A DNA stretch of 35,152 nt from a virus. The stretch covers positions 1 through 35,152 of IMG/VR virus record IMGVR_UViG_3300027704_000069; one strand, written 5' to 3'. The notes below the pieces were generated by a model that did not search any database, was not told the origin of the DNA, and worked only from the letters and a program-made list of their open reading frames with translations. Numbering within the stretch: the stretch's first letter is position 1; every line of letters begins with the position of its first letter. A program made the translations under genes and the position numbers. Below, in pieces: positions 6,686 to 35,152 of the stretch.

Positions 6686-9600
6686 TTATAATGTAATTCC
6701 CTGGCCCAGTGCTTGCAACTCTTGTGCTAAGACCGAACTTGGGCTTGTTTGTAATAATTCTTCTGACAACGCTTGGTATTGCAATGTAGTTGCAGGATTA
6801 CTAAACGTAAGTCCTGCTACTTCTGTTATTGATTTACCAATTGCTGCTGATATTGCAAATGTTCCTGATACTTCGCGTGTTGTAATACTAAGTAACGTTG
6901 CACTAGTCTTTGCAAATTCTATTAACTCACCACCTATGTATGCAAACCCGGTTGCACTAAATGCTCCAAAGGTACCGCTTATAGTAGTGTCAGCTACACC
7001 CAATGGTGCAGTTATTGTTGTTCGTTTTGTTTCTTGTAATGCGTGTGCTACAACTACACCAGCTTTGTCTTGTATATGTACAAACGTTCTTGAAGTAGCA
7101 GCCTCTGTACTTCCAACTACGTTAGTCTGTACATTAATTCTTAATGATTCAGTTGGCGTAAGTTCTACAGTAGATTCTTCTTTCGGTGCATACTTTGTTA
7201 CTACCGTACTAACCTTTGTATGGAAAGGTTTAACTTCTTGTATGTAACCTAATACATTACTAATATTATTTTTCTTATATTTCTTAGTAGTTGAATCTAT
7301 TATGTTGTTTAATTCTAATTTAATGTATGTTGTTTTCCTAACCCAGTTTGTTTGTGCAAACGAGCTTAGTGTGTGATTCACAATACTAAAGAACAGCGTA
7401 TTCATGTAATGTACGTTGTAATGAACAAATATATCCTTTTGTAGTGCTGTAATTATTGTTTCCCAATACTCTGCTATGTCTGCTTGATCGAACGGAGTAG
7501 AATCAAATGCTGCCATGTCCCAACCACCTTCTAGTGTTAACAGGTCTACGTTAAATTGAATTGTGATATTCTTCTTTAATACTAAATCCCATTTATTAGT
7601 AACATCGTTGTATGCATAAATCTCGCTTCTATTGCGTTGCACCGCAGTGTCAAACACAGCAATCTTAGCAACTACGTGAAAGTCTCTATCAATGTTAGCC
7701 AGGTCTGCATAGCTAGTAACTGTTGTTGTATGATTAGTGGTGCCAGTGTATGACGCTAATCTATAATCATGCCATGTCCATAAACGTTTAGGAAAGCCAT
7801 TAGCTATGAATGTTCTATCCCATGTGTCTTTATATTCTTGATCCAAGTTAATGTGCTGAAGCAACATATTGATTGTTACTGCTGCATTTCTTCTAGCATC
7901 AGTTAAATCATTAAACCATGTCTGACCAATGTCTATGTCATCTCCGAATCTATTAAATCTATGTAATGATTGGAAAGGTAAAAGATTTTTAGCAGTATCT
8001 CTGCCAGCTAAGTTTTGCCTCATACCATTTATATAGTACTCTGGAATTAAATCAGAATCTTTTGTAATAAGTGTCCACTCATTATGTGACTTATATTTGT
8101 CGCCTGCTTTGTTAATTTGTATTACAGTATTTTTATCATCAACGTAATATTGAATATTATCAATAATAAATTCTTTGTCTCCAACAACTGCAAACCAACT
8201 GATGCCACTTGTTGTTGGATCCTCAATTATGTTCGCTACGTCAAATGCTGACAATTCTCTTGTATCAGATATAGTTGTTTTATTTTTAACCCAATAGTAA
8301 TACACATCATTGTAAGAGTTTGTTTGTTTGTTCCATTCTTTAGCTATGGTATAGTAATATAAATGCTCATCGGCTACACTATCATATACTGAAAATGCAG
8401 CGCCTGTTGCTATTGTGCCTAAAATTTCTGTACTATTTTTAACAGCGTCATTATAGTCGTCTGGTGGAACTGATGCCTTAACCCATTCCCAAACAACTAC
8501 TTCGCTTCCAGGATATAGCATGCCCCATACTACTGATTTATAAGCAGTAGAGCCTTGGTCGTAATCATAGTATCTAACTTTACTTGTATCCCACCATCTA
8601 GTTCCTAGTTGTTCTTCACCCCAAGCCGAATCTGTATCAATAAGCTGATTTGTATCCGATGACGTTGTATAAATTGCATTATCGGAAACATTAATGTAGT
8701 CTAGGTTTTGTTGTGCTATACCAGGGATAATCTTTCTCATAGGATCCCATGCTTCTAATTGTACTTTTGATTTATTATCTTTGTGGTTGTAAATTACAAT
8801 ACTATCAATATCAGTGTTAGTAGGTCTGTGTGTGGTTTGACGTACAATATCAGTCCAGGTGTTTCCTGTTGCTGTTTTATATACGTATGTTCCTAACAAT
8901 CCGCCAACAGTTAATGATGATGCAAACACAAGTTTATTAGTTGGTAAGTTCCAACGTGTGTTTGCTATTGTATTATTTCTCGCCGGTACGTCTTTAAATC
9001 TAGTTGTTACTAATGGTTTAACAGAAACTGCGTTGCCACACTTCTCAATAAATTCATCTATGTAAAAAATTCTATCAGCATATGATCCAATTCCAAGTTT
9101 AGTTATTTTGTGTATACCGTCAATGTTAGGTGTAGTGGTTGTGTTTAGTAATTGTACAAAATCACCTACTTGTAACATGTGTGATACGTCTGTTGTTATC
9201 TCTGCGTCATTTCCATCCTTGCTCGATACACCTGCACATATACCACATGTGCTTCCGTCTGTACTTTTTGTAAACAACGGTACTTGTGCTGCACCAAAGT
9301 GTTGTACTTGTAACACATTCCACCCATAGAACTTAGTAACAATTGATCCACTAGATGCTATTTCAAAGTCACTGTCATTTGTTACTAGAATATTATATAA
9401 TGCATCATCGTCATCAGTTGCTGCAAATGAAGCTGGTGATGTGATAAACGTATTTTTAATTGTACTTCCTATTGCAGTAACCGTTCCAGTTGATAATCCT
9501 GCTAGAGTATTAAAATTAGTAGCTCCTAATTCGAGACTTGCTTCTGGTGATGTTATTACTATCGCATTACCCAATTCAACAATAGTAACAGTTGAATTTG

Positions 9601-12600
9601 CTGCTGTTAGTTTGGTTTGAATCTGAATAACTGCTTCTGCTGTTTTTGTATCTCTGTTAGTACTAGTAGAAGTTACAGCATAGGTTGCATTAAGACCAAG
9701 CACAGTTCTAGGGTCTCCAGATATAGTTAATCCGTTTGAATTATTATTTATACTTGTTAACACTAGCTTATTAGCTACAACCGCTGCAGAAACTTTACTT
9801 GTTAATGACGATGCGTTATTAATAGATTGTGCAACTTGTGTTACTGATAGAGCTATTTCAGAAGTAACAGTAGTACTTGCTGGGTGAGTTGTTGTTCCAC
9901 CCGATGGGAGTCCTAACTCAGTATTAGTAGCACTTGCTGATAATACTATAGAGTCTGTTATAAGTCCCATTGCTCTGCTTAACTGTAGCGTTAGTGGGTA
10001 AAGTCCATTTGTATTAATAGATGCTGTTACAAAACTTGTTCCAGTATAAGTATTAATCTTGTCTACAACCTCAGTGGCATTCATGCTGTTAGTCACGTGT
10101 ACTAATGTAACAACAATAACTGCGGCAGCAGCTGGTGCTGTCGTAAATGTTAGTGTTTGTCCAGTTATATTAAATCCAGTTTCAGCGGTGCCATCCACTG
10201 TTACTGTTACAAGACCTGTACTATATGTGCTAGCTGAAAGTGCTTGTGCTATTGTAAAGTCTGTTTGACTCGTTACACCTGTAAAGTTTTCAATTACGTT
10301 TGCTGGTGTTGTATCAAAATCAACTACTATAGAATTTAGTGTAATACTTTTACCTGTAACATCAGCTATAGCAACTGGTGTTGTATACGGTGTTGTATTG
10401 CCTGTTAGCTCTGCACCTGCTGTAACAGTAGTTACAAGACCATTATTTACAAAGTTAATATTTACTGGCACTCCGCCGTGTGTAATAGTAAGTGGTCCAA
10501 GGCTAGGTAAGAATGTTGGATTTGAAACTGAACCAGTTGCTGTGATATCATTGTAGATAGTTGCTGTGATATCATTGTAGATTGTATTGGTATCATTAAA
10601 AGCAAACTGTGGTATTCCTGCAATATTTACTAATGTTCCGTTTGGAAATGATGCATTTGTTTCTGATCCTGTCACTACAATATTATCTGTTGCAACAGTC
10701 AATCCAGTAAAGTCTACTATACAATTCCATAGTTGCCCGTTGTGTCTTACTTGCTCACCCTTTTTATAACTTGTATAATTATTCCAAGTAGGTATTTTTG
10801 CAAATGCTGCTGTCTTATCAAACGCAGCACTAATACCAGCTGCATTTTCAATTTGGTATTTTGTTTCTGTTTTAAGTGTTTCGCCACCTGTTAGTATGCC
10901 AGCAACAGAATCATTGTAGCTTAATGTATCAAACGTAATTACCTTATCATTAACTGTCTTAGCGTTTGTTTTATATATTACATTAGCCTTAATGTCTGCT
11001 ATAGATGTAGGTGCTGCATTTAATGATACAGTTTGTGGGGACGAGTTAATATCACTTGATACTATTTCTATCTCAAGTGGATCTTCCATGTCGCTATTAC
11101 CAAGTGTAGATTGTCTAAACATATATTGTTCAAATGCTGAAACTGATGAATTGTCACCACTTAGTAAATTGCTTTTGCCTATGTGTTGTAACGCATTCTT
11201 TGTACCTTTTTCTTTAATTACACCTTGGTAGTAATTTGTAAGTACGTTCTTATCAATCCCTATGCCATCTAGTAATTGTCCATCTACATTGCCTATTGTT
11301 AAATCTTTTGCTTTTGTAAATGCCTCATTAAATTCGTTTACGTCTGTTCTATAAATGTCGTCTACACTTTGCACTGCACTGTCAAAGTTTTGTACAATAT
11401 GATTATCAACTACTAAGTAACCCGGTGCTTTCTTTTCACCTGTCCAATTACTTGTTCGTTGTCCTCTTACTAACAAACGTTCTTGGCGTCTGTTCTTAAT
11501 GTCATCAAACAAATGTATTCCTAGCTTTGTTTTGTTTTCAAATATTACAACATGTTCATAATCTAATACTGCACTAGTAATACTTCCTATAAATTCTTTA
11601 TTCTTTGTTTCAATGTTTACTGTTCCATCTGTACGCGATATGCTTAAATCACTTGTCTGTAATCTATTAGAATTAGTATCTAGTACATCGTTGTTGTTAT
11701 ATTCTAGTTGATTATATTCATATACATGACCGTGTGTTGGCTTGAACTTTATTTCTCTGCCTAGTTGTAAAATGTATAGATTATCAACTTCTGCAGTTAC
11801 CGACCAAGTAACAAAATCAGCTGCGGAACTATCGCCGTCATATACAATTGTGTATCCGCTTGTTCGCATCCATTCCCAATAGCCTCGTATAAAGTTATAT
11901 GTGTCCTGCACCCTTTCAAAGACAACATCATATTCTGCTATGCTAGCTGTTGCTACAAAATCATTATATCGTCTTACTTGTTGATTCGCAATAGTCTGTG
12001 TTGTGTAATTTGTTGCTCTTACTAAGTTTGGCTCAAAGAATTTAAACTCTCTGTTGTTATTACTTAGACCTGATACTGTCCAGCCAGTTAGTGTTTTTTT
12101 AATAATTACTGCACTTGCTGTAACTGAATCTGTTACCGCGCCATTGTACATTTCAATATTAAAATCGCCTTCACCGAGTATAAAATCACCCGAGATGCTG
12201 CTGTCTGCAGATATATCTAGTAAATGTTTACTAGTAAATCCAGATAACTTTTCTTGTAGTTTAGTTGTTAAGTTACTATACAATTCACTTTGACTAATGT
12301 TGTTATGATTTCTACGAATATAATTGTACTGTGCTTGTGCTATTCCGTTCGCTACAAATGGAATCTTTTTAAGTTCAATGTCTACACAAATATCATTTGC
12401 TGCACCAGTTGTACCTACATAAGAAAGTACTGGTGTGTTAGTAAAGTGTAAGCCACGTTCTATTAAACTTATGCTATCAATTGTGCCAGTGTTTGGGCCA
12501 GTGCCTTCTTTAAAATTATATGTTGCTTTAGCAATAGTACTATCGTAATCATCTAATATTTTAAACCACCCAGTTCTTTCTGCAGCAGTTGGTGGATTAG

Positions 12601-15600
12601 TACCTGTAAGTGTTATATTAGAAATTGAACTTCCATAAACCTCTCCAGGCATTTTATAATCAACACTTGCTGGAAGCAATTCATTGTAACGACCTACGTT
12701 TGCTATTTTTGAATAAGTCCTACTAATAAATCCAGGCTGAAAGAATGCTGTCCATGCTTTTGCTGGAAGTAATTTTGATATAGCATCTACTGTCATTGCT
12801 TGTCCATTTGCTGCCGAGCGCCAGTTAATTTCAACTGGTCCCCAATCACCAAACACAAAGTCTGCTTCTTTTGCAACATTTGTAACATTACTATTTGGGT
12901 CTAACACTACGCTAATAGATTCCAATGTGCCATCTGTTTTAACTGGGCATCTAGTTGACCAGTCCCAATTGTGTCTTGCATATTTTACATCCTGTACTAT
13001 ATTTGAATAAGCTGGATTCTCTACTATGCCGTTTATTAATGCCTTATGTAGTGCTACTCTCTTAGATGCATCTGTCCAACTATAATAAGTATCCCACCAG
13101 CTTGGTTTAAATCCATACCCGAGCATGTGCCACGGAGTAATATGTGGAGTACACGTTCCAAATAAATGTGTGTATGCACCCTTGTAGTGTCCTGGCAACG
13201 TAGTACCAAAATCTTCATATGTGTTTATTGTGCTGTAATTCCAAGTAGTTTCATCAGATGCACTATAGTAACCAGTTGTGTTTAAACTTGTAATACTATT
13301 ATGTTTTGCCCATTGGTAGTAATATTTTTCTAAATAATTATTTAAATCATTTATTGCAAACCAAGAGCTTGTATGTTTGGATGGAATAAATTCAATTGGT
13401 GATGCTATTCGTTCTGCAGCTAGCCAGCCATACATAATATCAAATTTCACTATTCCAGCAAATATACGTTTTTCCATTTCAAACACTACTGCATTAACCG
13501 GATCAAATGTTGCGCCTGCATTTATATTTTCAATATCTTTTCCAGTTACATCTATTTGCATGCCGTCGTGTGTATATAATGTGTTTAAATGTACTTGAGG
13601 TTCAACACCGTATGCTAATCCAAGTTTTACCATGCTAGGTGGAATAAAACAAGGCTCGTCCATTTGAGAATAATAAATTTCTACAACTGCATTAGTTCCT
13701 GGCGCAGTGCTTAACAAAACTGTATCACCGTTAATAGTGTAATCAGTATCCTTAAGAAGAAGTTTTCTACTAGAGCTTTCTGTTAAGTAGACATATACAT
13801 GGTCTCTAATATTAAGATCACCATTAAATATATATCTTGTTTTAAATTTTGTTGTTGTAGCATTTTTTGTTATAAACGATTGCATGTCATCTGTTTGTGT
13901 AAACAGCATGTTAGACGCTTTGTATAAACCATCATCATGTTTATTTTTAATAACTTGTTGTATTGCTTTGTCAGTTAAGTTTTGTATACTTGTAGCACCT
14001 GTTGTACTATATACTCGTCTGGCTTGTGCTATAACTCTGTTTCTAAAACCTACATAATCATTTGCCTGTTCGTTTAATGCACCAGTGATACTTAGTTTAC
14101 TGTCAGAATAATTAATATCATTCATTATACTAATATCTTCTGACATAAAGATAGTGCCTCCGTAATATGGAGTATGTGGAATACTTGCAAAGTTATTCTC
14201 ACCAAATGTGTTGCCGCTAAAGTTTGGCATAGCATTTAATTTGCTTTCCCAATGGCTAAGTGTTTCACTTATTGTAAATGTGCTTATTGGAGTATTGTGT
14301 ACGTTATGAGTTAGCACATCTGGTAAACTTGTATTTGTTGTTTTATTTGTTAAGTCGTTATTATTCCAATAAAAATCTACAATGTCGCCTTTCTTAAAAA
14401 TACTATTATCAATTGTAGTAGTAGTAAAAGCAGCATTTTGTGTTTCTTGTGAATTCAATACTTCCTTACCATTAACTATAGTTTTATGAAATAAGTTATC
14501 CCATTTATTTGTTATGAAAAATGTTTGTAAAAGTACGCCATTAACTAATACATCAAATTGTTTATTGTTACTAGATGCACTTGTTGTTATAGTTGTAGTT
14601 GTTCCTACTGTTGTAGTTGTAATTTCAGACTGTGTGGAAAATGTTATTGTATCACTTGTTAAATTATGCAACACAAACTCTTGTCCTACACCTACCATAT
14701 AAAGGCTAGCTGTACCTACTCTTGCTGTAGATTGTACACCATCACTATTAACAATTGTTATAGCAAGCTGATCGCCAGATGATTGATATCTAACTGCATC
14801 TGAATGAACGTAATACGATTGTGTTGGTCTCCAGTTACTTTGTCCATAAGGAATTACTAATGGAGCATCATCAATTGTTATTTCGTATTGAATGTGTTCA
14901 CTTGCACCTGCTGATTTACCAGCCGGTGTGTATATTGATTTTAATACATCACTCTGTTTAAACAACGTATAACCTGTTTGGGCTTTAGTGTGTGATAAGT
15001 TATCATTTTCAACATGTTGGAAACTATTTAAATACTTTTTAGTTATAATAAAGTTTTCAAATTCATACTCGCCACCCTTTGGTGTATCTTTAAAACATAA
15101 TACTTTTCCTAGTTCGCTGTCTAATACTGTTCCAGTTCCTTTTTTGTATCCAAATATATTTGCGCCTTTGAATCCAATACCGTTTATGTTTTCTAATCCA
15201 ATGCCTTCTTGATTATACAATCTATACAATGGGTATTGATTTATTTTAGTTTTTTGTTGTGCTAATTTAATTACGCCTGCTTCTACAAATACGTCTGCAT
15301 CATTCCATAAACTATTTGTACTATTCTTAATAGAGAATGTATTGTTGTTAGTTAATGTAACAGATGCTGGTGTAGCTCCTACTGTGTAATACTTAAGGTC
15401 TGTGCCGTCTATGTAAACATAAGTAGTACCTGCTGCAAATGCTGCTATTGTTGCTGATTCAGCTGCGGTAACGCCATGGTCAACTGCTAACTTATTTTCT
15501 GCTTGGGTATCTGCTTCGTTATGTTCGTGTTTGCTACATTCCCACATGTTTAGTCCAGCGTTGTATTCAATAATAGGTCTAAGTGCTTGTCTGGTTTGTT

Positions 15601-16807
15601 TTAGTATTTCAGAAAAATTATAATTAGGTAGTAATGTTTTTAACTTATTAATTGTGCTGATGTTTACCCAATGGTTTGCTCTGCTCCATGCACTTTGAAG
15701 TGCGTCATGTTTTGCAACAACAATATAATCTTTTAATGGAGTTACTGGTAATCCGCTGTTATACATTACATTATTTGTTGGAGATACTGTTAGTCCAGCT
15801 AATTCTTTTGTAGTTGCGGATGCTATTGCAACATCACCAGAAGTAGGATCAACTGTTACTGAAAATATATCTGTATTATTAGTTGCACCGTGTGTCCAAC
15901 TTCCGGTAAACTTTACAAATACATTGTTAGCAAGTTGAGTAGGATTATCAATACTTGTATCAAAAAGGAAGCCATCAAATATTGGAAGCCTTGATGTGTT
16001 TGCATTAAAGGCTGTAATTCTAGCCTCTGGTGTTCCTGTGTATGTAGTAGCAGTGCCTGGGCTCACATTAAATATTTTTGGATTAGTATATACTCCATCA
16101 GTTGATTGTGTGTGCTTTACTGTATTATTATATACTCTAGTTCCAGTAGCATTAAAATATTCGTGTAATCTATGTTTGCCTGTTGAACCTGATACTAAAT
16201 ATGTTTTGTTTAATATAGCCGCATGTCCTGACCCAGTAAATTTAATTAGCATGCCTTCTTCAACAGTAAACGTATTGTTGTCGTCTGTTATAGTAGATAA
16301 TCCTGTTGCTATATCTGTTGTTGGGTTTTTAGCAGCGCCTGTCCATATACTTTCGTATACCGGCAACTCTTCTACCCAGTGATAGTTTTTATAATTAATA
16401 AATTTATCAATGTCAATTGGTGGATTAAAACTATATAAGCTAGAAGCATAAGCAGCATTATAATTATATGTAGCAAAGTTCTCATTAATAGAATGTGCAA
16501 CATCGTCAAATGTAATCATATTAGTTACATTGTCACTGTTGTCATATGAGATAACTCCAGGTTGTAATTGGTTCTTAGTACGTAATGCTTTATGAAACTT
16601 TGGTTCCAAGTACGTATCAGTTGATAATGCATCCTTGCCTGTTCTGCTTCCAATATAACCATTTAAATCTTCAAGCGGTCCTTTTGAAACCATTTGATCT
16701 AATGTACTGTCTAACCAATTTTTATTTAACTCTGTTTGAAATACCTTCGGTAAAAACTTACTTGTCTTTATATTGTTAACTGAATTTTGGCCTGCTTTCT
16801 TTTTCAT
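6686..16807 (-). CDS. Giant baseplate/tail structural protein, 3373 aa (gp7/gp8 position)
   Basis: This single frame covers 10.1 kb with no internal stop. ATG 16807 has AGGAT upstream and lies 3 bp after gp6, the place of gp7 in T4. The N-terminus (FLPKVFQTELNKNWLDSTLD and GPLEDLNGYIGSR) is typical of the very large structural proteins of marine T4-like phages. The middle has Trp-rich conserved blocks (HMLGYGFKPSWWDTYYSW near residue 1220, FVFGDWGPVEINWRSAANG). Residues about 2075-2480 are low-complexity, Thr/Ala/Asn-rich beta repeats that look inserted, including a domain shared with the 478-aa structural protein and an exact 24-bp tandem duplication. The end carries GELIEFAKTSATLLSITTRE, a module common in phage tail proteins. 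T4 gp7 is about 1030 residues, so this is over three times longer. It probably forms the outer baseplate wedge; gp7 identity is by position, not proven. Confidence 0.8.
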   Translation of the reverse strand: MKKKAGQNSVNNIKTSKFLPKVFQTELNKNWLDSTLDQMVSKGPLEDLNGYIGSRTGKDALSTDTYLEPKFHKALRTKNQLQPGVISYDNSDNVTNMITFDDVAHSINENFATYNYNAAYASSLYSFNPPIDIDKFINYKNYHWVEELPVYESIWTGAAKNPTTDIATGLSTITDDNNTFTVEEGMLIKFTGSGHAAILNKTYLVSGSTGKHRLHEYFNATGTRVYNNTVKHTQSTDGVYTNPKIFNVSPGTATTYTGTPEARITAFNANTSRLPIFDGFLFDTSIDNPTQLANNVFVKFTGSWTHGATNNTDIFSVTVDPTSGDVAIASATTKELAGLTVSPTNNVMYNSGLPVTPLKDYIVVAKHDALQSAWSRANHWVNISTINKLKTLLPNYNFSEILKQTRQALRPIIEYNAGLNMWECSKHEHNEADTQAENKLAVDHGVTAAESATIAAFAAGTTYVYIDGTDLKYYTVGATPASVTLTNNNTFSIKNSTNSLWNDADVFVEAGVIKLAQQKTKINQYPLYRLYNQEGIGLENINGIGFKGANIFGYKKGTGTVLDSELGKVLCFKDTPKGGEYEFENFIITKKYLNSFQHVENDNLSHTKAQTGYTLFKQSDVLKSIYTPAGKSAGASEHIQYEITIDDAPLVIPYGQSNWRPTQSYYVHSDAVRYQSSGDQLAITIVNSDGVQSTARVGTASLYMVGVGQEFVLHNLTSDTITFSTQSEITTTTVGTTTTITTSASSNNKQFDVLVNGVLLQTFFITNKWDNLFHKTIVNGKEVLNSQETQNAAFTTTTIDNSIFKKGDIVDFYWNNNDLTNKTTNTSLPDVLTHNVHNTPISTFTISETLSHWESKLNAMPNFSGNTFGENNFASIPHTPYYGGTIFMSEDISIMNDINYSDSKLSITGALNEQANDYVGFRNRVIAQARRVYSTTGATSIQNLTDKAIQQVIKNKHDDGLYKASNMLFTQTDDMQSFITKNATTTKFKTRYIFNGDLNIRDHVYVYLTESSSRKLLLKDTDYTINGDTVLLSTAPGTNAVVEIYYSQMDEPCFIPPSMVKLGLAYGVEPQVHLNTLYTHDGMQIDVTGKDIENINAGATFDPVNAVVFEMEKRIFAGIVKFDIMYGWLAAERIASPIEFIPSKHTSSWFAINDLNNYLEKYYYQWAKHNSITSLNTTGYYSASDETTWNYSTINTYEDFGTTLPGHYKGAYTHLFGTCTPHITPWHMLGYGFKPSWWDTYYSWTDASKRVALHKALINGIVENPAYSNIVQDVKYARHNWDWSTRCPVKTDGTLESISVVLDPNSNVTNVAKEADFVFGDWGPVEINWRSAANGQAMTVDAISKLLPAKAWTAFFQPGFISRTYSKIANVGRYNELLPASVDYKMPGEVYGSSISNITLTGTNPPTAAERTGWFKILDDYDSTIAKATYNFKEGTGPNTGTIDSISLIERGLHFTNTPVLSYVGTTGAANDICVDIELKKIPFVANGIAQAQYNYIRRNHNNISQSELYSNLTTKLQEKLSGFTSKHLLDISADSSISGDFILGEGDFNIEMYNGAVTDSVTASAVIIKKTLTGWTVSGLSNNNREFKFFEPNLVRATNYTTQTIANQQVRRYNDFVATASIAEYDVVFERVQDTYNFIRGYWEWMRTSGYTIVYDGDSSAADFVTWSVTAEVDNLYILQLGREIKFKPTHGHVYEYNQLEYNNNDVLDTNSNRLQTSDLSISRTDGTVNIETKNKEFIGSITSAVLDYEHVVIFENKTKLGIHLFDDIKNRRQERLLVRGQRTSNWTGEKKAPGYLVVDNHIVQNFDSAVQSVDDIYRTDVNEFNEAFTKAKDLTIGNVDGQLLDGIGIDKNVLTNYYQGVIKEKGTKNALQHIGKSNLLSGDNSSVSAFEQYMFRQSTLGNSDMEDPLEIEIVSSDINSSPQTVSLNAAPTSIADIKANVIYKTNAKTVNDKVITFDTLSYNDSVAGILTGGETLKTETKYQIENAAGISAAFDKTAAFAKIPTWNNYTSYKKGEQVRHNGQLWNCIVDFTGLTVATDNIVVTGSETNASFPNGTLVNIAGIPQFAFNDTNTIYNDITATIYNDITATGSVSNPTFLPSLGPLTITHGGVPVNINFVNNGLVTTVTAGAELTGNTTPYTTPVAIADVTGKSITLNSIVVDFDTTPANVIENFTGVTSQTDFTIAQALSASTYSTGLVTVTVDGTAETGFNITGQTLTFTTAPAAAAVIVVTLVHVTNSMNATEVVDKINTYTGTSFVTASINTNGLYPLTLQLSRAMGLITDSIVLSASATNTELGLPSGGTTTHPASTTVTSEIALSVTQVAQSINNASSLTSKVSAAVVANKLVLTSINNNSNGLTISGDPRTVLGLNATYAVTSTSTNRDTKTAEAVIQIQTKLTAANSTVTIVELGNAIVITSPEASLELGATNFNTLAGLSTGTVTAIGSTIKNTFITSPASFAATDDDDALYNILVTNDSDFEIASSGSIVTKFYGWNVLQVQHFGAAQVPLFTKSTDGSTCGICAGVSSKDGNDAEITTDVSHMLQVGDFVQLLNTTTTPNIDGIHKITKLGIGSYADRIFYIDEFIEKCGNAVSVKPLVTTRFKDVPARNNTIANTRWNLPTNKLVFASSLTVGGLLGTYVYKTATGNTWTDIVRQTTHRPTNTDIDSIVIYNHKDNKSKVQLEAWDPMRKIIPGIAQQNLDYINVSDNAIYTTSSDTNQLIDTDSAWGEEQLGTRWWDTSKVRYYDYDQGSTAYKSVVWGMLYPGSEVVVWEWVKASVPPDDYNDAVKNSTEILGTIATGAAFSVYDSVADEHLYYYTIAKEWNKQTNSYNDVYYYWVKNKTTISDTRELSAFDVANIIEDPTTSGISWFAVVGDKEFIIDNIQYYVDDKNTVIQINKAGDKYKSHNEWTLITKDSDLIPEYYINGMRQNLAGRDTAKNLLPFQSLHRFNRFGDDIDIGQTWFNDLTDARRNAAVTINMLLQHINLDQEYKDTWDRTFIANGFPKRLWTWHDYRLASYTGTTNHTTTVTSYADLANIDRDFHVVAKIAVFDTAVQRNRSEIYAYNDVTNKWDLVLKKNITIQFNVDLLTLEGGWDMAAFDSTPFDQADIAEYWETIITALQKDIFVHYNVHYMNTLFFSIVNHTLSSFAQTNWVRKTTYIKLELNNIIDSTTKKYKKNNISNVLGYIQEVKPFHTKVSTVVTKYAPKEESTVELTPTESLRINVQTNVVGSTEAATSRTFVHIQDKAGVVVAHALQETKRTTITAPLGVADTTISGTFGAFSATGFAYIGGELIEFAKTSATLLSITTREVSGTFAISAAIGKSITEVAGLTFSNPATTLQYQALSEELLQTSPSSVLAQELQALGQGITL
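10105..10301 (-). repeat. Dispersed beta-domain repeat, copy B
   Basis: Partner of 3711-3908, encoding residues about 2169-2234 of the giant protein (DFTIAQALSASTYSTGLVTV ... LTFTTAPAAAAVIVVTLVH). A weaker third relative may be near 13680-13800 (DYTINGDTVLLSTAPGTNAV). Confidence 0.75.
10535..10582. repeat. Exact 24-bp tandem duplication in giant structural gene
   Basis: 10535-10558 and 10559-10582 are identical. On the minus strand they encode IYNDITAT twice (residues about 2076-2091). The frame is preserved. Confidence 0.95.
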
Positions 16808-20318: not shown

Positions 20319-20861
20319 TTATGATTGGAGAATTAGCTTATCTTCTGGCCATTTTATGTAATCTTGCCAATATAAACATGGAATTATTATTTGATGTGTC
20401 TTTTCAGAGTAGTTTATCTTGTGCCAACTTGGAACAGTTGGGATGTTGATTGGAGTTGATAGCTTATCGCCTTTTTTAACATTGCATGGACCACATGCAC
20501 TTACTGTGTTCTCCCACGTAAGTCTACCACCGCGTGACTTAGGAATTACATGATCTATTGTTAACTCGGCAAAAATGAATTGATCACCACAATACTGACA
20601 ACAATGATCGTCTCTTAGGTACAAATTCCGTCGCGAGTATTTTGCTTTAACCGGTTGCTTATGATATGTGTTTAACATGATTATACTAGGACACGGTATA
20701 GTAATTGATTCCGAATGTAAGTACACGTCATCATAACTTCTAATTACACGCACCTTCTCCAGAAAGACAGCCTTGACTGCATCTTGCCAACTAACGGTGC
20801 TTAATGGTAATATTGATAATGGTTGCCCATCAGCGTTCAGTAGTAATACACTGTTATTCAA
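20319..20861 (-). CDS. HNH endonuclease, 180 aa
   Basis: The N-terminus (LLLNADGQPLSILPLSTVSW) and core match the free-standing HNH nucleases common in bacteria and phages. A zinc knuckle is formed by C88-C91 (CQYC) and C123-C126 (CGPC), flanking the ELTIDHVIPKSRGG motif (DH at 103-104) and Asn118 in the WEN segment, so all catalytic positions look intact. No ATG is available before the conserved N-terminus. The start is TTG 20861 with AAGGA eight bases upstream. It has its own late-type element (20887) and lies inside the baseplate block between the lysozyme-like gene and gp25, a placement typical of mobile homing nucleases, though a DNA-packaging or defence role is possible. Confidence 0.9.
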   Translation of the reverse strand: MNNSVLLLNADGQPLSILPLSTVSWQDAVKAVFLEKVRVIRSYDDVYLHSESITIPCPSIIMLNTYHKQPVKAKYSRRNLYLRDDHCCQYCGDQFIFAELTIDHVIPKSRGGRLTWENTVSACGPCNVKKGDKLSTPINIPTVPSWHKINYSEKTHQIIIPCLYWQDYIKWPEDKLILQS

Positions 20862-31173: not shown

Positions 31174-31198
31174 CAACATATACTGCTTCTGCTATAAT
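31170..31198 (+). promoter_or_regulatory. Perfect-consensus sigma-70 promoter
   Basis: TTGACA at 31170-31175, a 17-bp spacer and TATAAT at 31193-31198, all twelve consensus bases. The -35 box shares bases with the stop codon of the GIY-YIG-like gene. No coding sequence follows for 690 bp. Confidence 0.9.
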
Positions 31199-31204
31199 AA
31201 AACA

Positions 31205-31672
31205 AGAAGTGCGGTTTTAACTGTATTATCAGCTAATAATTAAAGCATCAGATAATTAATAGTATAAAGACCCAACAACACCCAAATAATTAAACAGACA
31301 TAAAGTCACGCAAACATCGGCACAGCTTCACAAACGTACTATCCCCGGCTAACAGTAAAACCACTATAAAACTAATAACGGCTTAAAGGCTCTGACTAGT
31401 AGAGATCGCTCTACTCACCTTGAGGTTACTTCGTTGTGACCGGAACTGGTGTGCCAACTATGTCAATACACTGATTTGACAAATCAAAATGATCAAGCTC
31501 TACGAACGCTCGTAACTTGAGGATAGTCCAAAAGTCGATACTATGGCTCCGGATGTTTCTGCGTTAGAAAAGCAGTATGTAATAAGGGTACAGCATAACC
31601 GCCCTTCCTAGGTGTTAAACTAGGTTTACTATAGTACTTGTGGCTGGATACCTATGTAAGGGTATTTTTTTT
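31205..31672 (+). ncRNA. Structured noncoding RNA candidate, about 470 nt, unknown family
   Basis: The stretch lies between a perfect sigma-70 promoter and an intrinsic terminator and has no open frame of 60 codons on either strand. Hairpins seen in order: 31233-31262 (AT-rich, one mismatch); 31399-31414 (GTAGAG/CTCTAC, 4-nt loop); 31416-31451 (CACC and GGTTAC paired with GTGACC and GGTG); 31472-31486 (TGATTT/AAATCA); 31493-31520 (TCAAG and TACGA paired with TCGTA and CTTGA); 31559-31575; 31584-31606 (AAGGG/CCCTT); 31607-31624 (CCTAG/CTAGG); and the terminator stem. GACTA at 31394-31398 can pair with TAGTC at 31524-31528 and so enclose four of these in one junction. GC is higher here than in the flanking AT-rich DNA. 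It does not match tmRNA, RNase P RNA, tRNA or a full group I intron by eye. Early expression is predicted from the promoter. Function unknown. Confidence 0.65.
31648..31672 (+). terminator. Intrinsic terminator of the ncRNA candidate
   Basis: Stem ATACC (31648-31652) with GGTAT (31661-31665), followed by an unbroken run of eight T at 31665-31672. The stem is short, so efficiency may be moderate. Confidence 0.7.
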
Positions 31673-31699
31673 GCACTTGGCTTTGTATAAGCTAAGTGT
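31673..31699 (+). other. Strong hairpin directly after the terminator
   Basis: CACTTGGCTT (31674-31683) pairs with AAGCTAAGTG (31689-31698) around a 5-nt loop; ten pairs with one G-U, and a further G-U pair outside. No T run follows. It may back up the terminator or protect the 3' end of a read-through RNA. Confidence 0.6.
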
Positions 31700-31736
31700 G
31701 ATTAGAAAACCATGTAAAAGTACCATATGTTATTCA

Positions 31737-31744
31737 TATAAATA
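31737..31744 (+). promoter_or_regulatory. Late promoter element TATAAATA
   Basis: A perfect T4 late consensus on the plus strand in the AT-rich gap, 149 bp before ATG 31893. The surrounding 31700-31810 is otherwise plain AT-rich sequence, so chance occurrence is possible. Confidence 0.45.
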
Positions 31745-31810
31745 TAAGTATATCAAATGTTTATATAATCAATATAATTTTATACAATTAAACTAAAATA
31801 AAAGCGTAAG

Positions 31811-31842
31811 CAAAAAACAACAAGTAAAGCGATTAGCTTTAC
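31811..31842 (-). terminator. Possible minus-strand intrinsic terminator
   Basis: On the minus strand GTAAAGC-taatc-GCTTTAC (31842-31824, seven perfect pairs) is followed by TTGTTGTTTTTTG. It could end the gp26-like unit transcribed leftward, after running antisense through the gene at 31893-32345. Confidence 0.45.
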
Positions 31843-31845
31843 GTA

Positions 31846-31873
31846 GTTGATGATATCGTAGATATCAATTAAC
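31846..31873. other. Long inverted repeat in the leader of the 150-aa gene
   Basis: GTTGATGATATC (31846-31857) and GATATC-A-ATTAAC (31861-31873) form a 12-bp stem with one bulged A and a 3-nt loop. It ends about 20 bases before the start codon of the plus-strand gene. Confidence 0.6.
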
Positions 31874-31892
31874 ATTAGAATAATGGACAGTT

Positions 31893-32345
31893 ATGACTTT
31901 AGACGAATTTACAATTAAGTTTCTACAGTTTGTAGAAGAATCAATAGAAAATAAAAAAGATGATGGGTATCCTGTTTGTCCATATGCACGTAGTGCTAGA
32001 ATGAAACAGACATTACAGTTTATTGATGCACGTGATGATCTTACGACTTTAGAATCGTTTGATCCTGTTACGTATCAAATGGGTATATGTTGGTTGGGTG
32101 ATGTAGATGATATAACTCCAATAGAAAAAGTTTGCGAGGAGTTGTCGGTAAAGAATGATAACTTGCTATACTTTACTAGTACAAGAACAAGTGGACATTT
32201 TGTTAAGAATTTTACGGATTGTGTGTTTGTACAGCGTAAAGATGATTTATTAGAAAAGCGTACACACTTAAAAGATAATACAACATACTACGATAGTTGG
32301 CCAATAGACTATTACAAGTTAATTACCGGACCGAACCACTCCTAG
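31893..32345 (+). CDS. Uncharacterised phage protein with CPYAR motif, 150 aa
   Basis: I do not recognise this protein with confidence. It has VCPYARSARMKQTLQFIDAR near residues 28-47, recalling the CP(F/Y)A(K/R) motif of small uncharacterised proteins such as the DUF1415 type. A later block is YFTSTRTSGHFVKNFTDCVF, and the protein is acidic and soluble. ATG 31893 has only a weak GGA upstream, after a leader with two hairpins. Its 3' end overlaps the end of the opposing gp51-like frame by 23 bp. A late element lies at 31737. The function is open; the conserved Cys may be redox active or bind metal. Confidence 0.75.
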   Translation: MTLDEFTIKFLQFVEESIENKKDDGYPVCPYARSARMKQTLQFIDARDDLTTLESFDPVTYQMGICWLGDVDDITPIEKVCEELSVKNDNLLYFTSTRTSGHFVKNFTDCVFVQRKDDLLEKRTHLKDNTTYYDSWPIDYYKLITGPNHS

Positions 32346-32595
32346 ATTTATTTATTTCCTCAACACGATTATTCATACGCTCAATTAATAGTTTAATACT
32401 ATCAACTGGCATTTGCATTACGTCTTGATAACTAATTGCTCCTTCGCTGCGAATCACTATATCTAAATAGTTACTTTCTAGATCTTTCTGAATCTTATTA
32501 TATCGTTCAACTAACTCTGCTATTTCTTCGGGTCGACGAGAAGCTATCAACCCGCGAAAAAATTTGCAATATCTAAGTCCACGGAAGTTTTCCAA
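32323..32595 (-). CDS. Second frame of gp26-like pair (gp51-like), probably made by -1 frameshift
   Basis: The frame encodes a helical, charged product (IASRRPEEIAELVERYNKIQ, then MPVDSIKLLIERMNNRVEEI). In T4 gene 51 follows gene 26, so gp51-like is the positional call; the sequence itself is not clearly gp51. It has no ATG before residue 60. The only early starts are TTG 32595, inside gp26, and a TTG overlapping the gp26 stop, both without a Shine-Dalgarno. The frame is -1 relative to gp26 and the overlap holds a slippery sequence with a hairpin (32529-32565), so the likely product is a 352-residue gp26 fusion: gp26 through Phe274 plus 78 residues of this frame. The 3' end overlaps the opposing gene by 23 bp. 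Confidence 0.7.
   Translation of the reverse strand: MENFRGLRYCKFFRGLIASRRPEEIAELVERYNKIQKDLESNYLDIVIRSEGAISYQDVMQMPVDSIKLLIERMNNRVEEINKSRSGSVR
32529..32565 (-). promoter_or_regulatory. Candidate programmed -1 ribosomal frameshift signal
   Basis: In gp26 codons the minus strand reads gcA AAT TTT TTC, giving two overlapping canonical heptamers: A AAT TTT (32565-32559) and T TTT TTC (32562-32556). Immediately downstream CGGGTTGA (32554-32547) pairs with TCGACCCG (32536-32529), eight pairs with one G-U and a 10-nt loop. The gp26 TGA stop is within the 5' arm of the stem. Confidence 0.7.
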
Positions 32596-33380
32596 TCATG
32601 ACCACAGTCTTGACAGTTAGCGTTAAATTCAGTTTCTAATCCACTTTCACTTAACTCTTCTACCTTACCTTTAATTATATCATAGTCTGCTCTGGTAATA
32701 GTTTGCAACCATTCTTTAATTAATGCTTTGTCAGTAATGACTTCGGTATCTTTTCCTTGCACACTTACAATACTGTGTGTAATTAAAGCAACAGTAAGTT
32801 CAGCAATTTCAACAAATGTTTTTCCAAATAGATCGTTTCTAGCACCATCATCTAGTGCCTCATTACCTAATCCTTCAATCATTTTTTGTTGTTTAATTTG
32901 TTGTACTTGCAGTGTAGTTCTATCACGTAACGTGTACGGATTGCAAACAATCTTAAAATTACTAGGCAATGACACACTTTGATCTATTGATTCTGTGTCT
33001 ATTACTTTAGATATCATAATATTTGCATCCAGCGTCAACTGATTATCAAATTCACATTTTGGACATTTAACATCCATGTCAATGTTTTTACCATAGCTCG
33101 CTTGTCTAATACCTACTAAGATTACAAGCAAATCACCTACTGGCATTGATTCTGGATCCTCAATGTCTGGGCAACAACTTCTGATTAAACTTATTGTGGC
33201 TTCTCCGTTAAACAGTGCGTCTGGTGTTTTAGTAATAAGCTCGTCCCTTGCAGTCATAGCGTATACTGCTAATTCATTGTCAATACTAAGTTTCGGCAAA
33301 TTTGTGTAAAATTTACCACCACTTGGTAGCGGAATATATAAAGCAGGCTTACGATATGCTTGAATTAATGGGTTTGTCAT
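32547..33380 (-). CDS. 26: gp26-like baseplate hub / tail assembly protein, 277 aa
   Basis: The protein fits the T4_baseplate (gp26-like) family as found in T4-like phages: YIPLPSGGKFYTNLPKLSID at 15-34, DELITKTPDALFNGEATISL at 46-65, and a four-Cys zinc site made by CPKC (106-109) and CQDC (256-259). The helical middle (DRTTLQVQQIKQQKMIEGLG) and zinc fold are shared by related tail proteins. gp26 is needed for hub assembly in T4. ATG 33380 lies 55 bp after the start predicted from GATAAATA at 33441. Its end overlaps a second frame through a slippery site, the arrangement of lambda G/GT tail chaperones, so it may work as a tape-measure chaperone. The next gene, transcribed divergently, looks like a tape measure. 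Confidence 0.75.
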   Translation of the reverse strand: MTNPLIQAYRKPALYIPLPSGGKFYTNLPKLSIDNELAVYAMTARDELITKTPDALFNGEATISLIRSCCPDIEDPESMPVGDLLVILVGIRQASYGKNIDMDVKCPKCEFDNQLTLDANIMISKVIDTESIDQSVSLPSNFKIVCNPYTLRDRTTLQVQQIKQQKMIEGLGNEALDDGARNDLFGKTFVEIAELTVALITHSIVSVQGKDTEVITDKALIKEWLQTITRADYDIIKGKVEELSESGLETEFNANCQDCGHDWKTSVDLDIANFFAG

Positions 33381-33416
33381 TTATTTTCTCCAATTATATA
33401 CGTATATTATGAATAG

Positions 33417-33486: not shown

Positions 33487-35152
33487 ATGAGTCCAGAAGA
33501 AATTGAACAGATAAGCAAACAGTATCCTTGGGCAACCGAGGATACACTAGACCGAGTTAACCAGGTGTTTGGCAACACTAACATTACCATGTCTCAAATT
33601 GCAGCCGGTCTTAGTAAATCAAAAGTTGCAGATATTCGAAAAATAAGACGAACCGCAGAAACTGCTGGTGAGGAAGCAACAGCAACTCAAAAAGTAGTAT
33701 TAGCAACGGCTAAGCGAACTCAGAGTACATTAAAAACAATGATAAGCGACTCGAGTCCAGCAGATGCTATTGCAGAACTGGCGCACGAAGGTGCAAAGTT
33801 ACTAGCAAATGCCGGACAAGCTATAACAGGATTTACTAGTAACTTAGGAGCCGGCGGTAAAGCGGCCAGTGTTCTAGGAAACACAGTAGCGTGGGCAGCA
33901 GTGGCAACTACTGGGCTTGGAGTTATTTACGCAAAGTTATTAACTGAACAAGAAAAAATGGTAAGAGGATTAATAGAAGTTGGTAGTATTGCATCAGATT
34001 TGGATAGATATACTTACTTAAGAAGCTCTGCGGCTGCATTAGGAATGGGCCTCGGCGACCTTGCAGAAATTACCGACGCAACTAAACCTTTTATAGTTTC
34101 AGCCGGTGGCTCTGTACTTGAAGGACAAATAAAATTAACTGAGTTTCTTGCAAACATAGACGATGACAAAACATTTAATGATTTTGGTATGGCAGTCCAA
34201 GACCAATCCAAATGGCTTGCACAAGAACTAGAAATGTTATACCAGATACAAGAAGTTAGCGAACTTAATGCTATGACTAAAAGACGAGTAATGGACTCAT
34301 TTGAATCTGCAAACAAACTTGCGTTGTTCATAGGTGATTCGCTTGGAACACAACGAGACGTAGCACTTGCGGCAAGGGATGAAGCAAGAATGAATATAGA
34401 TTTTAGAGTATCACTAATGCAAAACGCTCAGTGGATAGCAGACAACCTTGGCATTAATGCTAAAGAAAATATTGATAATGCACAAGGATGGTTCGCAATG
34501 CTATCTAAAGCTTCTATGAGTTCTATGACTGACGATATAAGCAAATCAGTCTCTTCGTTTGTAGGTAACATATCATTTGATCAGACTGCTGCAAACGACA
34601 TACCAGAAGAGCTAGCTGCCAGATTAATAGCAGTAGGCAACGGTGCGTTTGAGAAGTATATAAAATTAATAGAAGATATAGGACTATCAAATATAAAAAC
34701 AGAGGCACAGGCAGCATATCAATGGACAGACTTTGTTGAAGCAGTTAAAGGTGCAGAAACAAAGATAGCAGCCTATGATCCTCTATTACAAAGTGCAAAC
34801 CTGTTAATAGCAGAATCTAAACTAATTCCAGTGGGATTTTTTGATAAGGATTTAAGTGAACTAGAAAGTACTAGTTATTATAAGAAGTTTATAGATAGAG
34901 CAGATGGAACTATTGATGTACTTGATGACTTTGCAGTTACTTTTAAAAATATACAAGAACTATTAACACCAGGATTTGAAAGCACAGGCAAAGGGTTCGA
35001 GGCCTTAACAGGTAGTTTAATGAAATTTGGTGAGCATATAAGTAACTTTTTTCAAACCGACCCCGATTACTATACTGTAACCGAGATAGGTAATACTGGT
35101 CTTGCTACTGAATCATACCAAGTGCTTGATGTTAAAGACTCGGGCTTAGAAA
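33487..35152 (+). CDS. Tape-measure-like tail protein, C-terminus cut by window edge
   Basis: The frame is open for 555 codons to the window end. ATG 33487 follows AAGG at about nine bases. The product is rich in Ala, Ser and Lys and almost wholly helical (KVADIRKIRRTAETAGEEAT, then AKRTQSTLKTMISDSSPADA). One hydrophobic segment lies at about residues 128-152 (SVLGNTVAWAAVATTGLGVI). After it come long amphipathic helices (EKMVRGLIEVGSIASDLDRY, VSELNAMTKRRVMDSFESAN). This is the make-up of tail tape measure proteins, which set tail length and span the membrane on ejection. T4 uses gp29 (590 residues) for this; no clear gp29 motif is seen, so it may be another large virion protein. It lies divergent from the gp26-like pair with a perfect late promoter. 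Confidence 0.6.
   Translation, partial: MSPEEIEQISKQYPWATEDTLDRVNQVFGNTNITMSQIAAGLSKSKVADIRKIRRTAETAGEEATATQKVVLATAKRTQSTLKTMISDSSPADAIAELAHEGAKLLANAGQAITGFTSNLGAGGKAASVLGNTVAWAAVATTGLGVIYAKLLTEQEKMVRGLIEVGSIASDLDRYTYLRSSAAALGMGLGDLAEITDATKPFIVSAGGSVLEGQIKLTEFLANIDDDKTFNDFGMAVQDQSKWLAQELEMLYQIQEVSELNAMTKRRVMDSFESANKLALFIGDSLGTQRDVALAARDEARMNIDFRVSLMQNAQWIADNLGINAKENIDNAQGWFAMLSKASMSSMTDDISKSVSSFVGNISFDQTAANDIPEELAARLIAVGNGAFEKYIKLIEDIGLSNIKTEAQAAYQWTDFVEAVKGAETKIAAYDPLLQSANLLIAESKLIPVGFFDKDLSELESTSYYKKFIDRADGTIDVLDDFAVTFKNIQELLTPGFESTGKGFEALTGSLMKFGEHISNFFQTDPDYYTVTEIGNTGLATESYQVLDVKDSGLE

Follow-up and report, generated by a model that had tools for sequence, protein, structure and literature searches.

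Does the gp26-like gene of this virus encode one protein or two? On the minus strand the gene ends in ATT GCA AAT TTT TTC GCG GGT TGA TAG, and a second open frame overlaps it in -1. An initial annotation had proposed that a programmed -1 frameshift joins the two frames. Our analysis of the window (the whole 35,152-nt stretch of viral DNA) and of 122 distinct homologues strongly supports this proposal. The heptamers, the frames, their conservation, the coding selection on the extension and the homology to T4 gp26/gp51 are all observed directly, and we are highly confident that the locus carries a conserved programmed -1 frameshift, which would make a 352-aa long form (TAC-NC) from the gp26-like gene. 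By analogy, the locus would be a TAC-N/TAC-NC tail assembly chaperone pair of the T4 superfamily.

The slippery site and the stem-loop

The short form (TAC-N) is a 277-aa protein encoded in the zero frame (32547..33380, minus strand). Its ATG start is preceded, at a distance of 7 nt, by a GGAG ribosome binding site (33388..33391, minus strand; context TTGGAGAAAATAAATG). The protein matches PF12322 (T4_baseplate) with an E value of 1e-18 and 68.2 bits, against a gathering cut-off of 24.5, and phrog_150 (baseplate hub) with an E value of 1e-19. The AF2 model of the short form has a pLDDT of 90 and its BFVD matches are T4-like baseplate hub assembly proteins; a PDB sequence search and Foldseek against the PDB returned no TAC-like fold for this model or for that of the extension.

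Frame reading confirmed two nested heptamers in the gp26 zero frame on the minus strand, A AAT TTT at 32559..32565 (heptamer 1) and T TTT TTC at 32556..32562 (heptamer 2). The zero-frame stop TGA follows at 32547..32549 (minus strand), with a second stop, TAG, at 32544-32546. Slipping at either heptamer gives the identical product, ...DIANF-FRGLIASR..., of 275 + 77 = 352 residues, the length originally proposed for the fusion. The 77-codon -1 extension (TAC-C; 32326..32556, minus strand), a predicted helical domain, ends at a TAA (32323-32325, minus strand). Upstream, the -1 frame is closed by a TGA at 32596..32598 (minus strand) and hence offers no full-length independent ORF. The second frame thus overlaps the gp26-like gene in -1 and has no usable start or ribosome binding site, as had been claimed.

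A possible stimulator lies just downstream, where a stem-loop of 8-9 bp spans the zero-frame stop (32529..32554, minus strand). The 8-bp hairpin of the initial annotation folds as described, extending to 9 bp in the window with a folding energy of -14.4 kcal/mol over a 59-nt segment; it starts 1 nt after heptamer 2 and 4 nt after heptamer 1. Stimulators are usually spaced 5-9 nt from the slippery site, so the 1-4 nt found here is shorter. Judged from the window sequence alone, the hairpin is only mildly more stable than shuffled sequences (z -1.0). In an alignment of 18 distinct near-clade sequences, 95.8% of cells remain paired and 8 cells are compensatory, compared with 2.4 in shuffles; covariation that was indistinguishable from shuffles in a 6-sequence alignment thus became distinguishable with 18. 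No common stem was found in the distant lineages folded, and the element, conserved within the near clade, may therefore be a clade-specific stimulator at most.

Conservation of the site and reading of the second frame

The tally of relatives comprised 164 loci with 122 distinct C-termini, down to about 20-25% identity, from jumbo phages, cyanophages, Aeromonas phages and Rhizobium phages. A zero-frame heptamer lies no more than 45 nt from the stop in all of them (122/122). T TTT TTC occurs in 115 of the 122 and T TTT TTT/G in 4; A AAT TTT is present in 52 and is the sole heptamer in 3. The exact sequence AAATTTTTTC recurs in 14 close relatives (73-83% identity). One relative (L110) has an N-to-G change that turns A AAT TTT into G GGT TTT, which is still slippery. 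Jumbo phages at 24-35% identity, including PA5oct, Atu_ph07, SCTP-2, 121Q, GAP32, RaK2, CBB, BF, Munch and XacN1, carry T TTT TTC or T TTT TTT together with the homologous -1 frame. In every complete cyanophage relative examined, T TTT TTC precedes the gp26 stop by 10 nt and a -1 extension is present. The heptamer also occurs in Aeromonas phage phiAS5 and Rhizobium phage IC12, and RL38J1 (L097) has T TTT TTG, the P2-type heptamer. A profile search yielded 80 loci that show the same picture; 78 of them were additional to the earlier ones. The codon preceding TTT ends in T in 54 of 54 sequences across seven residue types (N, S, H, D, Y, A and R); over 12 lineages the chance of this under codon usage is ~10^-10, a figure to be taken as a guide only, the site having been located by the T run itself.

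The extension is conserved along with the site. Nearly all relatives not cut short carry a homologous -1 frame that runs on for about 58-80 codons, four contigs (L060, L141, L142 and L146) being cut or broken within it. Among close relatives its dN/dS is about 0.1-0.3 (dN 0.03-0.25 versus dS of 0.5 or more) and changes fall mostly at third codon positions; the extension is under purifying selection. An AF2 model (pLDDT 88) places helices at residues 9-36 and 51-75. Pfam and PHROG searches with the window's extension gave nothing convincing, and tblastn with the extension alone returned two weak phage matches only. Each of these falls at the equivalent junction, in the -1 frame. Of the features that the initial annotation had proposed to align across relatives, the heptamer was kept throughout (122/122) and no conserved start was found, while the hairpin held in the near clade and not in the distant lineages folded.

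Could chance or a sequencing artefact have placed a poly-T run close to a stop, ahead of an accidentally open -1 frame? With 34 in 10,676 codons, heptamers in the zero frame are common enough in this AT-rich window that a single one near a gene end, taken alone, is within chance. Among the 24 coding sequences of the window that were examined, the gp26-like gene alone has such a heptamer near its stop. Because the heptamer is conserved in all 122 distinct relatives, which come from independent genomes and include cultured and finished phages, the arrangement as a whole is far beyond chance, and the purifying selection on the extension argues likewise. Conservation rules this reading out, and we give it practically no weight. 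Separate initiation is also very improbable, though slightly less so. The second frame would then be a gene of its own, starting at TTG 32595, which lies 13 codons before the slip point, or at TTG 32550, which overlaps the TGA (TTGA) and would be reached by stop-start coupling. Two relatives (L008 and L010) do have an ATG at the upstream place, but another (L004) has no start there, CTG replaces the overlapping TTG in L005 and several other near relatives, and PA5oct lacks ATG, GTG and TTG throughout the extension. In the relatives compared, neither a conserved start nor a Shine-Dalgarno sequence at any candidate start of the extension was found, as against the GGAG at the gp26 start. As a finding that would refute the frameshift, the initial annotation had named homologues that lack the slippery site and whose second frame has an ATG and a ribosome binding site; the comparison revealed the opposite, and separate initiation would leave the invariant heptamer unexplained.

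A further alternative accepts the frameshift and concerns its product, which might be a structural component of the baseplate hub rather than an assembly chaperone. PHROG and many records do label gp26 a baseplate hub protein, and Leiman et al. (2010) noted support for gp26 in the hub, though in their list both gp26 and gp51 are chaperones of hub assembly. Against a structural role, the T4 particle lacks gp51, yet gp51 is needed for assembly (Leiman et al., 2010), and a short/long pair produced by frameshifting is the feature that typifies tail assembly chaperones. Two papers (PMC10885494 and PMC12846349) also use Vladimirov et al. (2022) for the chaperone assignment. We regard a structural product as unlikely, if less so than the two readings without a frameshift.

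Under the frameshift reading with a chaperone product, most ribosomes would stop at the TGA at 32547-32549 and release the 277-aa short form, and at A AAT TTT / T TTT TTC a fraction would move back by one nucleotide, a step that in the near clade the stem-loop spanning the stop may promote. The slipped ribosomes would read 77 more codons and yield the 352-aa long form, whose C-terminal domain is predicted to be helical. If the pair works as gpG/gpGT does in lambda, the role of the short form would be to coat the tape measure protein, and that of the long form to recruit tail tube subunits.

Four loci were left out of the tally. In three PF12322 relatives, Streptococcus phage GXN1 (L037 3727), Streptomyces phage GiJojo (L038 3517) and LR756508 (L032 3745), the downstream open frame lies in +1, and each has TTT C near the equivalent slip position; a switch from -1 to +1 frameshifting is possible in these phages. 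In GiJojo (L038 2029-6177) the PF12322 gene and its extension are flanked by the genes for the tail tube and for a long tail protein, which is where tail chaperones classically lie. The fourth, LR756511, has GGGTTTTTTC about 70 nt before the stop. One could go further and regard the signal as an unusual tuned element, with two nested heptamers usable in tandem, a stop-codon stem 1-4 nt downstream and the extension moved to the +1 frame in some distant relatives. We hold this view only tentatively and consider it rather doubtful; if true, the family would show a frameshift that switches direction or is replaced by gene duplication, as in T4.

Flanking genes and a probable structured RNA

The divergent neighbour of the gp26-like gene (33487..35151, plus strand; at least 555 aa, cut by the window end) had no family match in family searches. 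Its position is conserved and its RaK2 homologue is annotated as similar to tape measure protein; from these two observations it is probably the tape measure protein.

A covarying RNA of about 280 nt was detected at 31375-31655 (plus strand), within the gap at 31174-31892. Its nucleotide identity among near relatives is about 75-85%, and it has 58 consensus pairs, 22 of them with compensatory changes. Compensatory cells numbered 54, versus 14.3 expected from shuffles and 1-9 in slid controls. No Rfam family matched at E 5, and the element is not a tRNA or tmRNA. A model of the 3′ part matched 15 additional, more distant relatives with E values of 0.1 or lower; in each the RNA lies downstream of the chaperone gene and on the opposite strand. 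The element is probably a new structured non-coding RNA and may be more novel than the frameshift.

Elsewhere in the window, an HNH endonuclease-like ORF (20319-20861, minus strand; phrog_16726, E 3e-34) sits among tail and baseplate genes, and a single ORF of 3373 aa (6686-16807, minus strand) has weak Pfam matches only.

Relation to T4 gp26/gp51 and to other chaperone pairs

The initial annotation had likened the locus to a T4 gene 26-51 pair, and this comparison has to be recast. Each of the two T4 proteins matches the full length of PF12322 (gp26, E 9e-64; gp51, E 4e-52), and gp51 consists of a gp26-type domain plus about 48 residues. phrog_634 matches both the -1 ORF of cyanophage Syn19 (E 2e-27) and residues 147-246 of T4 gp51 (E 1e-23). 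Since gp26 and gp51 both belong to PF12322 and the cyanophage -1 extension maps on the added part of gp51, T4 has, by homology, two genes for the short and long forms, with gp26 as the short and gp51 as the long form. Genes 26 and 51 are separate and divergent, not tandem, gp51 being a full-length paralogue with the extension fused to it, whereas the phage of the window has one gene with a shift. The window's own extension aligns modestly with the T4/cyanophage extension (hhalign E 9e-5, probability 59, 36 columns). Independent annotators describe gp26, gp51 and gp28 as tape measure protein assembly chaperones.

Cyanophages such as Syn19 and S-PM2, among others, have the same gp26 with T TTT TTC and a -1 extension, part of which is annotated in public records as a separate short gp51 with an internal ATG start. 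Cyanophage gp51 was reported to lack the first ~200 residues (Sullivan et al., 2010, PMC3037559), and the passages of that paper on gp51 offer no frameshift explanation. The "truncated gp51" is the -1 extension, and the frameshift would account for the missing ~200 residues. The passages also report gp51 as missing in Aeromonas phage Aeh1 (PMC3037559). In Aeromonas phage phiAS5 (L096 2935-3884) both T TTT TTC and an extension in -1 are present, and the frameshift explanation might apply to Aeh1 as well. In many public phage genomes, extensions now listed as hypothetical, omitted or called truncated gp51 can be re-annotated as the tail of a frameshift product. The family, with one frameshifted gene in most of its lineages but two genes in T4, is also useful for following the gain, loss and replacement of frameshifting.

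The initial annotation knew of no described case for the T4 gene 26-51 pair. According to later papers, however, the tail assembly chaperones of T4-like phages had already been reported (Vladimirov, Gautam and Davidson, Virology 2022, 566:9-15, as cited in PMC10885494 and PMC12846349). The PRFect paper (PMC10885494) cites this work for T4-like phages with one short and one long TAC gene, and the Adele paper (PMC12846349) for poly-T sites of -1 frameshifting in T4-like TAC-N genes. The mechanism is thus known in kind for T4-like phages since 2022, and the window is a well-supported new example. Vladimirov and colleagues are said to have found frameshifting conserved in several T4-like groups, with T4 using genes 26 and 51. 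The protein family is the same in that work and here, T4 gp26/gp51; the two nested heptamers, the stem covarying within a clade and the wide tally are additional here. In lambda, slippage occurs at G GGA AAG and the tape measure gene follows immediately after the gene pair, whereas the gene of the window is divergent from the likely tape measure gene and not in an operon just upstream of it. The lambda gpG/gpGT and P2 E/E+E' pairs are also short and long chaperones from a single gene, the long form arising by a -1 slip close to the 3′ end of that gene (Xu, Hendrix and Duda, 2004; Christie et al., 2002).
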